Below are positions 6,882 through 9,185 of a stretch of 11,400 nt of DNA, in pieces. The DNA is from Candidatus Nesterenkonia stercoripullorum (GTDB lineage Bacteria; Actinomycetota; Actinomycetes; Actinomycetales; Micrococcaceae). How positions within the stretch are numbered: the stretch's first letter is position 1; every line of letters begins with the position of its first letter. The notes beneath the pieces are model-generated. The model ran no database searches, had not been told where the DNA came from, and saw nothing but the letters and a program-made list of their open reading frames with translations. The stretch lies in contig DXGD01000319.1 in the NCBI GenBank assembly GCA_019114115.1, positions 1-11,400 of the forward strand, in the 5' to 3' direction. Made by a program: the position numbers and the translations under genes.

Positions 6882-6905
6882 CACCAAAGAGCTCACGACA
6901 TGAAA

Positions 6906-7040
6906 GAACCCCGAGCCGGGAGCGTGAGGGGGGTCGCTCTAGAATCCGGCTCGGGGTCCTTGTATCACTCGCACCTTGATGAGGTAGTTACTACGTTAAC
7001 GAACGAAAATGGCCCTGCGCTCAATATTCCCTGGGAGTTT
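6906..7040 (-). repeat. Structured intergenic element, copy A
   Basis: This is one of two diverged copies of an intergenic element (the other is at 8095-8239). In plus-strand order it has: a hairpin with a 12-bp stem (6908-6919 with 6946-6957), an inner 5-bp stem (GAGCG 6920-6924, CGCTC 6935-6939) and a G-rich apical loop; the block TGTATCACTCGCACCT at 6961-6976, identical in copy B; a region 6977-6994 matching at 14 of 18 positions; 12 unmatched bases; AAATGG at 7007-7012; and TCCCTGGGAGTTT at 7028-7040, again identical. Copy A lies 49 bp downstream of the minus-strand Rieske gene. Read on the minus strand, the conserved blocks precede the hairpin, which is followed by a T-rich stretch. This suggests a 3'UTR module or small RNA ending in a terminator. 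Strand and function are inferred. Confidence 0.75.
6908..6957 (-). terminator. Hairpin of element A, terminator-like on the minus strand
   Basis: ACCCCGAGCCGG (6908-6919) and CCGGCTCGGGGT (6946-6957) are perfect inverted repeats. Read on the minus strand the stem is followed by TTCTTTC, a moderate U-rich tail, downstream of the Rieske gene. It could also stop plus-strand transcripts leaving the ABC operon. Confidence 0.45.
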
Positions 7041-7089
7041 CCTGTGCATTTTTGCGAAGCTGCGAGCAGGGTCTTTGCGCGGCCCCGTT

Positions 7090-7443
7090 TCAGGACGTCG
7101 CGGCGTCTGGCTGGGATGTCCCAGGATGCAGAATGATGTGTCCATCCTCGATGGAGACCACATGGGTGCGGACGGGGCTGATGGCCGGCAGCGTCTCCGG
7201 GACACCGGTCTTGAGGCAGAAGGCGGAGGCATGCATAGGGCACTCCAGGGTGTCTTCTTCGACGAACCCATCCGAGAGCGCAACTGACTCATGGGAGCAT
7301 TCATCGTCGAGCGCGTAGAATTGCCCATCCTCGGCATGCACGACGGCGATATCGCAGCTGTAGCCGCTGGTTTCGGCATCGACTCGCATCACCTCTCCCT
7401 CAGGGAGCAGGGAAGTAGGGCCGAGATCCACACGAGCTGTCAT
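7090..7443 (-). CDS. Rieske [2Fe-2S] ferredoxin (non-haem iron oxygenase ferredoxin type)
   Basis: The 117-residue protein carries the Rieske cluster motif: C49-S-H51 and C68-P-M-H71, separated by 16 residues. These two Cys and two His ligate a 2Fe-2S cluster that passes single electrons. Length and sequence (SDGFVEEDTLECPMH, SAFCLKTG) match small cytoplasmic ferredoxins of dioxygenase systems and the related protein encoded in many actinobacterial suf iron-sulfur operons. No oxygenase, reductase or suf gene is in the window, so the partner is unknown. ATG 7443 is chosen because family similarity begins there. AGGG just upstream is too close for an ordinary ribosome site, while TATGTT seven bases upstream could support a leaderless transcript. 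ATG 7455 would add four residues. The S4-protein gene lies 74 bp upstream on the same strand. Confidence 0.9.
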   Translation of the reverse strand: MTARVDLGPTSLLPEGEVMRVDAETSGYSCDIAVVHAEDGQFYALDDECSHESVALSDGFVEEDTLECPMHASAFCLKTGVPETLPAISPVRTHVVSIEDGHIILHPGTSQPDAATS

Positions 7444-7517: not shown

Positions 7518-7946
7518 TCATTCTCCGCGCAGTCTGTCGAGCTGGCGACGTTCGCGTTTGGTGGGCCGTCCCGCGCCACGCGGGCGGACGGGCAGCCCGA
7601 CGTCTCGTGGCCGGATGCGCTCGGGGGAGTGGTCGCGGTAGGCCTGGCGAGCAGCCGGTGCGCCTACACGGGATGAGAGCGTGCGGACCACTTCGATGAT
7701 GAGTTCGTGTCCGGGCCTTCTGAGGTGAATCGTCGTTCCGGGGGTCACGCGGACGGAGGCTTTGACGGGCTGACCATCGATTTTCACGTGGCCCGCTCGG
7801 CACGCCGTCGTCGCCGCGGACCGCGTCTTGAACAGCCGCACAGACCACAGCCACGCGTCCACCCGTACTGGGGTGGTGGAGCCGACCTGGGCTGGGGCGG
7901 GGGCACCGCCAGCGTCCGAGGGGGCTTGCTGCTGATGATCGGACAT
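7518..7946 (-). CDS. S4-domain RNA-binding protein (Hsp15-like)
   Basis: The 142-residue product begins with a disordered Gln/Ala/Pro-rich stretch of about 25 residues. An S4 domain follows (about 27-80): RVDAWLWSVRLFKTRSAATT, then AGHVKIDGQPVKASVRVTPG, the helix-turn-strand fold that binds structured RNA. The C-terminus is very basic (RPRGAGRPTKRERRQLDRL). E. coli Hsp15 is similar in size and layout; it binds free 50S subunits carrying a stalled nascent chain and helps recycle them. That role here is by family analogy. ATG 7946 fits the domain start; the frame stays open to 8162 without family similarity. TAAGCT seven bases upstream of the ATG suggests a leaderless transcript. The Rieske gene follows 74 bp downstream and might be cotranscribed. 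Confidence 0.87.
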   Translation of the reverse strand: MSDHQQQAPSDAGGAPAPAQVGSTTPVRVDAWLWSVRLFKTRSAATTACRAGHVKIDGQPVKASVRVTPGTTIHLRRPGHELIIEVVRTLSSRVGAPAARQAYRDHSPERIRPRDVGLPVRPRGAGRPTKRERRQLDRLRGE

Positions 7947-8082: not shown

Positions 8083-8094
8083 CCCGCAGAAGAG

Positions 8095-8239
8095 GACAGG
8101 CCCCGTGCCGAGAGCGTGAGGGGGACGCTGTCTCGGCACGGGGCCTGCTGTATCACTCGCACCTAGAAGAGGCAGTTACCACTCTAGGGAGAGTAAATGG
8201 GCATTCAATGCACGTGACCTGGGGAGTCCCTGGGAGTTT
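8095..8239 (-). repeat. Structured intergenic element, copy B
   Basis: This is the second copy of the element found at 6906-7040. It has a perfect 17-bp stem (8097-8113 with 8131-8147); the shared GAGCG plus loop TGAGGGGGA (8117-8125); TGTATCACTCGCACCT at 8149-8164, identical to copy A; the 8165-8182 region; AAATGG at 8195-8200, at exactly the same distance as in copy A; and TCCCTGGGAGTTT at 8227-8239. An 11-bp length difference lies between the last two blocks. The stem differs from copy A by compensatory pairs. The element starts 7 bp after the stop codon of the minus-strand lipoprotein gene, so on that strand it is its 3'UTR. Confidence 0.75.
8097..8147 (-). terminator. Hairpin of element B, terminator-like on the minus strand
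   Basis: A 17-bp perfect GC-rich inverted repeat with a 17-nt loop, containing a further 3-bp stem, lies about 100 bp downstream of the lipoprotein stop. On the minus strand it is followed by TGTCCTCTTCT, only loosely U-rich. It is the strongest hairpin in the window. Confidence 0.5.
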
Positions 8240-8987: not shown

Positions 8988-9099
8988 GGTGAACAGTGTC
9001 GCATGCAGGAGGGGCGCCGGCATTACATTCTCATCACAGAGCCTGTGGCGCGTGAGAAATTTCCCCTGAGGCATCACTGGGGGTGACATAGTCGGGGGT

Positions 9100-9162
9100 G
9101 AGGGGCAGCGGCCTCGCCGCGGGCTTGCGGTAGGGCCTCACAGCGGGAGGCCGCTGCTTCTC
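9100..9162. other. Strong hairpin in the divergent region
   Basis: GCAGCGGCCTC (9105-9115) and GAGGCCGCTGC (9147-9157) are perfect inverted repeats around a 31-nt loop. The stem extends outward to 9100 and 9162 through five more pairs, two of them G-T. It could be a terminator for readthrough on either strand, or a structured leader element. It does not share the loop or flanking blocks of the elements at 6906 and 8095. Confidence 0.55.
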
Positions 9163-9185
9163 ACGTCCGGCGGGCATGAGCTTCA

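Follow-up and report, generated by a model that had tools for sequence, protein, structure and literature searches.

The repeated element of the window, that is, of the whole 11,400-nucleotide stretch analysed here, is most likely a small regulatory RNA gene that occurs twice on the minus strand. The host belongs to Nesterenkonia (Micrococcaceae) and has a genome assembly of 2.63 Mb in 499 contigs that is 82% complete. Copies at 6906-7040 and 8095-8239 had been predicted from the letters of the window, and their coordinates are borne out in the sequence, as are the identical 16-mer (starting at 6961 and 8149), the segment matching at 14 of 18 positions, the AAATGG that follows 12 unmatched bases, and both long hairpins. 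Identical TCCCTGGGAGTTT blocks are also present (7028 and 8227) but do not share the register claimed for them. They lie 67 and 78 nt from the 16-mer, an offset of 11 nt, which equals one period of the direct repeat to which TCCCTGGGAGTTT belongs as a unit; different units had been matched. Read on the minus strand, both copies contain a direct-repeat box, a TAnnnT -10 box, a short 5' domain and a long hairpin in fixed register (Table 1). The unconserved stretches between the blocks are indeed of fixed length, as originally described, and are reread here as promoter spacing between the regulator box, the -10 box and the 5' domain. AAATGG, which reads CCATTT on the minus strand, is common to both window copies; over 89 copies, the commonest letters at that place are CCAAG.

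Table 1 Features of the two element copies and of the genes between them.
Feature	Position	Strand	Basis
Predicted small RNA, copy 1	6898..6986	-	Predicted ends: start ~7 nt below the -10 box; TCTTTCATGT end after the hairpin; terminator-like minus-strand site
Hairpin of copy 1, C-rich loop with 6 C's on the minus strand	6908..6958	-	Fold and covariation in 78 copies
5' domain of copy 1, UACCUCAUCAAGGUGCGAGUGAU	6964..6986	-	Conserved columns, sequence
-10 box of copy 1, TAACGT (TAnnnT)	6993..6998	-	Conserved TA...T, sequence
Box of direct repeats of copy 1, period 11 nt, with degenerate last unit (CCATTT)	7008..7050	-	Conserved columns; likeness to published response-regulator boxes
Predicted small RNA, copy 2	8085..8174	-	Predicted ends; layout as in copy 1; terminator scan without T-run site
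Hairpin of copy 2, C-rich loop (CCCCCUCA)	8097..8147	-	17-nt perfect arms; minus-strand fold z -7.5
5' domain of copy 2, UGCCUCUUCUAGGUGCGAGUGAU	8152..8174	-	Conserved columns, sequence
-10 box of copy 2, TAGAGT	8181..8186	-	Conserved columns, sequence
Box of direct repeats of copy 2, period 11 nt, with degenerate last unit (CCATTT)	8196..8238	-	Conserved columns, sequence
Rieske [2Fe-2S] protein gene, between copies	7093..7440	-	Pfam PF00355; synteny
S4-domain, Hsp15-like RNA-binding protein gene, between copies	7521..7946	-	Pfam PF01479; start codon chosen by the author

The host genome, at its 82% completeness, contains only the two window sites of the 16-mer when up to 2 mismatches are allowed (a reversed-pattern control gave 1 match), and the sequence profile described below, R1, also finds just these two copies. 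The element is not dispersed through this genome as a 3'UTR element, as had been proposed, and instead looks like a stand-alone minus-strand gene. The original prediction had pointed to related genomes as a place to look for further copies, and these were found. With one mismatch allowed, the 16-mer was present in 30 of 98 related genomes, comprising 29 of the 30 Nesterenkonia genomes and one other; the lone match outside Nesterenkonia (L079) is devoid of the flanking parts of the element. A pattern search of related contigs also identified the element in Arthrobacter, Paenarthrobacter and Paeniglutamicibacter, yielding 8 stretches only, as the pattern demanded AGTTAC, which is absent from many copies. 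R1 is a sequence-only profile whose 90 positions begin at the repeat box and finish with the 13-mer AGGTGCGAGTGAT; both R1 and alignment A3 were made from 66 of 88 sequences, hand-chosen to thin near-duplicates. At E<=0.001, R1 matched 353 of 395 sampled Micrococcaceae genomes from 31 of 32 genera, with 1 to 9 copies per matching genome. It matched 29 of 30 Nesterenkonia genomes, the exception being G014, and no genome of the genus g6 was among those matching in the family sample. Across 297 sampled genomes of the order, 24 matched. Of these, 21 belong to the host family; the other 3, from a single genus of a different family, match weakly and partially (best E 1.2e-4 to 9.1e-4), without reaching the end of the model. 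The family and order sets are samples of larger groups, matches were counted among those listed, and stricter filters were applied whenever R1 or the 6C model was run over more than 40 genomes. The family of predicted small-RNA genes of Micrococcaceae is taken to be real. It is new as far as the literature was searched, no prior description having been found among the titles and abstract beginnings of open-licence papers.

The promoter region was compared column by column in 110 distinct copies, numbered on the minus strand from the first base of the -10 box as 0. CAG is conserved at -46 and at -35, each preceded by a conserved T and C, followed by a weak third unit near -24, CA(A)G at -13 and TAnnnT at 0, after which come the 5' domain and the hairpin. 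The repeat units are 11 nt apart, and the core of the box can be written TCMCAGG-N4-TCCCAGG. The same columns stand out when the 79 Nesterenkonia copies and the 31 copies from other genera are scored apart, so that in both sets 11-nt direct repeats lie at a constant distance from the -10 box, as in promoters of the OmpR/PhoB type. The TAnnnT box is located ~10 nt below the last repeat unit, and a -35 consensus is absent; likewise, a promoter scan gave no sigma-70-type -35/-10 consensus pair at either window copy, which is expected if an activator stands in for the missing element. The stretch between the -10 box and the hairpin is among the most conserved parts of the element and carries the 5' domain motif [A/G]CCUC..UC-AAGGUGCGAGUGAU. 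The invariance of the 13-mer is partly a consequence of copies having been searched by the 13-mer itself. GAGTGAT was present in 23 of 23 other-genus copies refound by a looser pattern that did not ask for its letters, at loci obtained via R1, which had been trained on such sequences. The other-genus loci were drawn from the high-scoring end of the R1 list, and three of them repeat loci of the earlier pattern search.

Strong copies of the box are largely confined to the RNA genes in the DNA that was scanned. Of 90 boxes scoring at least 13 bits, 84 sit at RNA genes, as counted in 587 kb of partly redundant Nesterenkonia DNA fetched around RNA and pstS loci. A shorter box pattern gave 21 matches in 30 genomes, 9 at RNA genes and 12 at mixed places elsewhere. 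Among its sites are the region upstream of a pyruvate-carboxylase-like frame in two genomes (L227, position 636, in G009; L245 in G003) and, by eye, the region upstream of a tRNA-like gene (L235 in G022). These sites are possible further targets of the regulator.

Direct repeats with an 11-nt period are typical of OmpR/PhoB-type response regulators according to excerpts of PMC4832192 and PMC3353115. The box resembles those bound by this class, a likeness that suggests activation of the element by a two-component regulator. Six published boxes were scanned in both orientations against the 110 copies. The best fits by z-score were the Corynebacterium glutamicum PhoR box (z 5.3; on average 10.0 of 16 letters matched) and the Mycobacterium tuberculosis PhoP box (z 5.6; 8.5 of 14 letters), both at the same place in the element, with the Escherichia coli PhoB box next (z 4.8). 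In the same scan, the MtrA box, as described in the excerpted text of PMC6265350, did not fit, and the Streptomyces PhoP box was rejected as well.

Covariation of the hairpin was measured in alignment A2, which holds all 78 copies kept after dropping duplicates and copies that failed the downstream pattern. Over 12 pairs, including a small 5' stem, 95.9% of cells pair compared to 84.7% in shuffles and 31 to 55% in slid controls. Cells changed on both sides of a pair numbered 115 versus 35.8 (s.d. 8.5) in shuffles, and the covariation score was 0.429 versus 0.215; none of 500 shuffles attained these values or the observed share of paired cells. Two of the five covariation measures, the number of pairs with double change and that of further pair types, were not above shuffles (133 and 69 of 500), and relatedness of the sequences makes the other measures look stronger than they are. 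The hairpin double changes in excess of shuffles, together with the presence of the element in nearly every Nesterenkonia genome, show that the likeness of the copies exceeds chance. The view of the element as structured, modular and small-RNA-like stands, and so does the accompanying claim that the copies are no recent duplication.

Several observations bear on the strand and on the RNA. When the long hairpin is read on the minus strand, 76 cells are G.U or U.G and 19 are A.C or C.A, an excess that is supporting evidence and no proof: the copies share ancestry, and prediction of the structure on this strand in itself favours G.U. Single folds of the window copies gave z -2.1 and -7.5 on the minus strand versus z -1.5 and -4.7 on the plus strand. 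An unpaired run of at least 4 C inside a helix is found in 67 of 78 Nesterenkonia copies compared to 16% of dinucleotide shuffles, and in 26 of 34 other-genus copies compared to 24% of shuffles. The Nesterenkonia RNA would form a single long hairpin, whose loop reads, for example, GUCCCCCUCA. Two hairpins are common in copies from other genera, where UUCCCCCAA is an example of the loop letters and the tails are UUUAA-like; T-rich tails are present in 20 of the 34, the remaining 14 being without a T tract by the pattern used. A terminator scan returned overlapping minus-strand sites at copy 1 and no T-run site after the hairpin of copy 2. This lack at copy 2, the missing T tracts in the 14 other-genus copies and the good folding of the plus strand weigh against the minus-strand reading.

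In Nesterenkonia, the usual gene order is ABC permease, RNA, Rieske protein, S4 protein, RNA, M23 peptidase; some genomes carry two tandem RNAs after the Rieske gene as well as further copies elsewhere. The location beside gene 3' ends noted in the window reflects this local synteny. In other genera, the neighbour at 12 of 23 distinct loci (14 before two repeats were removed) is instead proC, ppx or a gene resembling a sugar isomerase. An imperfect palindrome (arms of 23 nt, 83% complementary) was also observed in the window at 9093-9169, where the lipoprotein gene and the M23 peptidase gene diverge. A match of this palindrome to an Rfam microRNA was below the gathering score and was taken as chance.

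Several other explanations were weighed against a minus-strand small RNA gene. Were the element a cis-acting leader, that is, an attenuator or riboswitch, the box would drive the mRNA of the next gene (the S4 protein gene in the case of copy 2) and the hairpin would act as a conditional terminator. By a simple ORF and GC3 heuristic, 38 of 108 copies have their nearest downstream gene on the same strand, often the S4 gene of Nesterenkonia, but for 70 of 108 that gene is on the opposite strand (2 of the 110 copies have no downstream gene in their stretch). A co-directional gene is thus missing from most copies; copy 1 points towards a convergent gene, and several other-genus elements face the 3' end of ppx or of the sugar isomerase gene. 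Gene orientation therefore argues against a leader, which we regard as unlikely. Convergent flanking genes, seen at several copies including copy 1, would suit an element that acts only as DNA, with a regulator site and a bidirectional terminator serving both strands and no functional RNA. The strong conservation between the -10 box and the hairpin, the retention of the C-rich loop beyond shuffles and the G.U excess on one strand speak against this, making it quite improbable, and the excess of G.U over A.C likewise argues against a plus-strand RNA. A small protein starting at a conserved GUG is highly improbable. The GUG is present in 110 of 110 copies and AAGG-N5-GUG looks like a ribosome-binding site; however, the GUG sits within the motif used for finding the copies, and the frame that it opens is of uneven length: 35 of 110 copies reach a stop within 12 codons and 35 of 110 exceed 40 codons, with residues after the second varying widely. 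This decay of the frame argues against a protein. A mobile repeat of the MITE or REP type is the least credible of the alternatives. Several copies per genome (9 in some) and a hairpin would be in keeping with one, but copy number is low (2 in the host), synteny and promoter layout are conserved, and the hairpin arms differ between copies while their pairing is kept.

The same RNA could also be controlled by the phosphate response regulator as a member of the Pho regulon. The box resembles the C. glutamicum PhoR box, as given in the excerpted part of PMC3353115, and the RNA gene is often beside the exopolyphosphatase gene ppx in other genera. We consider this very unlikely, as the M. tuberculosis PhoP box is a match of similar quality and pstS promoters, used as a Pho-regulon control, carry a different box. 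pstS was found in 26 of 30 Nesterenkonia genomes (27 loci), and an upstream GTTCACC-N4-GTTCACC matched at least 11 of 14 letters at 25 of the 27 loci, at least 12 at 23 and all 14 at 14; the box was taken as the best match per whole ~4 kb locus, with its upstream place in the 25 read from positions. An sRNA-type box of at least 13 bits was present at none of the 27 Nesterenkonia pstS promoters. This difference makes a response regulator other than that for phosphate likelier for the RNA. The boxes before pstS (L150-L176, 26 genomes) suggest that the Nesterenkonia phosphate regulator uses a Streptomyces-type box.

The small RNA gene is accordingly the reading pursued here. Read from the conservation, structure, promoter layout and family-wide presence that were observed, the element probably defines a new family of trans-acting small RNAs that would be transcribed under two-component activation and would act, like 6C RNA, by pairing through C-rich loops. 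A response regulator of the OmpR/PhoB class would occupy the box in place of a -35 element, recruit RNA polymerase and turn the gene on. Each copy would then yield a minus-strand RNA of ~85-90 nt terminating at its own hairpin. The C-rich loop, perhaps together with the 5' CCUC, may pair with the G-rich ribosome-binding sites of several mRNAs and lower their translation, and the conserved 5' domain could be another site at which RNA or protein binds. Where copies differ in their arms and slightly in their 5' ends, their targets would overlap. In 30 genomes, the loop complement was found before ATG 265 times versus 126 for the reversed pattern, a count that includes the RNA genes themselves and any general bias towards ribosome-binding sites. 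No convincing target emerged from the cases inspected individually. The loop of a Paeniglutamicibacter paralogue (L083, position 2249; L085, position 4127) reads CACCUCCUU, which we take to resemble the anti-Shine-Dalgarno tail of 16S rRNA.

A bolder extension of this model, which we regard as speculative and doubtful, is that Micrococcaceae possess a two-component system whose main output is a family of small RNAs that broadly adjust translation through a loop complementary to ribosome-binding sites, the 5' domain docking an RNA-binding partner for which the Hsp15-like S4 protein would be a candidate. The S4 protein matched the NCBIfam Hsp15 model at E 6.5e-11 with 42.5 bits, below the cut-off of 148. 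In favour of this extension are the share of strong boxes found at RNA genes (84 of 90 in the fetched Nesterenkonia DNA) and G014, a 99% complete Nesterenkonia genome that lacks the element and also gave no match for the Hsp15-like S4 protein. Against it, the two g6 genomes that were tested encode the S4 protein but lack the element, the S4 gene is mostly absent near the RNA in other genera (six loci), and the shorter box pattern occurs at 12 further places.

The RNA family is notable for its breadth and strict promoter anatomy. A stand-alone RNA gene that keeps so strict a promoter layout, reaches nine copies and occurs in 353 of 395 sampled genomes of a family whose bacteria are common in soil and on skin probably has an important regulatory role. 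Beyond a few model genera, small RNAs of actinobacteria have been little mapped.

No Rfam family matched over the window elements at E<=5 and none matched at the gathering score in 12 further loci, in agreement with the original remark that no known RNA family was recognised in the element. Three described systems are nonetheless similar in part. Mcr7 of M. tuberculosis is a small RNA under the OmpR-type response regulator PhoP according to an excerpt of PMC4038636, and the PhoP box, TCACAGC-N4-TCACAGC in the excerpted text of PMC4832192, resembles the box of the new RNA; the two RNAs are likened by box and description. The scr5583 and scr1434 families of Streptomyces are conserved actinobacterial small RNAs with a C-rich terminal loop, and RNAIII of Staphylococcus aureus pairs through C-rich loops, both as stated in part of PMC3765725. 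The Streptomyces families share the C-rich loop with the new RNA and are likened to it by description, R1 having been searched within the order of the host.

The closest comparison is with 6C RNA (RF01066), an actinobacterial RNA with C-rich hairpin loops through which it binds mRNAs, going by the title of a paper cited in PMC6789036. The C-rich loop is common to both. Membership in the 6C family was rejected, as the Rfam covariance model was not reached: it gave no match in the window (E<=5), none at the gathering score in 12 element loci and none in 30 Nesterenkonia genomes under strict filters. The 6C model describes two adjacent hairpins with about six C per loop, whereas Nesterenkonia copies have one long hairpin; in some other genera (L123, L135) the new RNA has two hairpins with C-rich loops, as 6C does. 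Unlike 6C, the new RNA has a conserved 5' domain. Among 149 sampled genomes of the family, the 6C model matched 13 at E<=0.01, 5 of them over the cut-off. Seven of these belong to g6, where the new RNA was not found. At the g6 loci L142, L144, L146 and L147, further hairpins with CCCCCC and CCCCC loops precede the 6C match near 1501-1576, raising the possibility of a longer RNA in g6 with four C-rich hairpins in all. A 6C-like match below the Rfam cut-off was also observed in g10 (L149, ~1380-1580), with TTCCCAGC-AAA-TTCCCAGC, repeats of the TCCCAGC type, just upstream. These repeats resemble the box of the new RNA but stand closer to the -10 box, a sequence likeness hinting that several RNAs with C-rich loops could share the box. 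The other six matching genomes, in g10, g11 and g22, have both RNAs, so the two are not strictly exclusive. With 6C concentrated in a genus without the new RNA and six genomes having both, the new RNA bears on whether C-rich-loop silencing arose more than once in actinobacteria.
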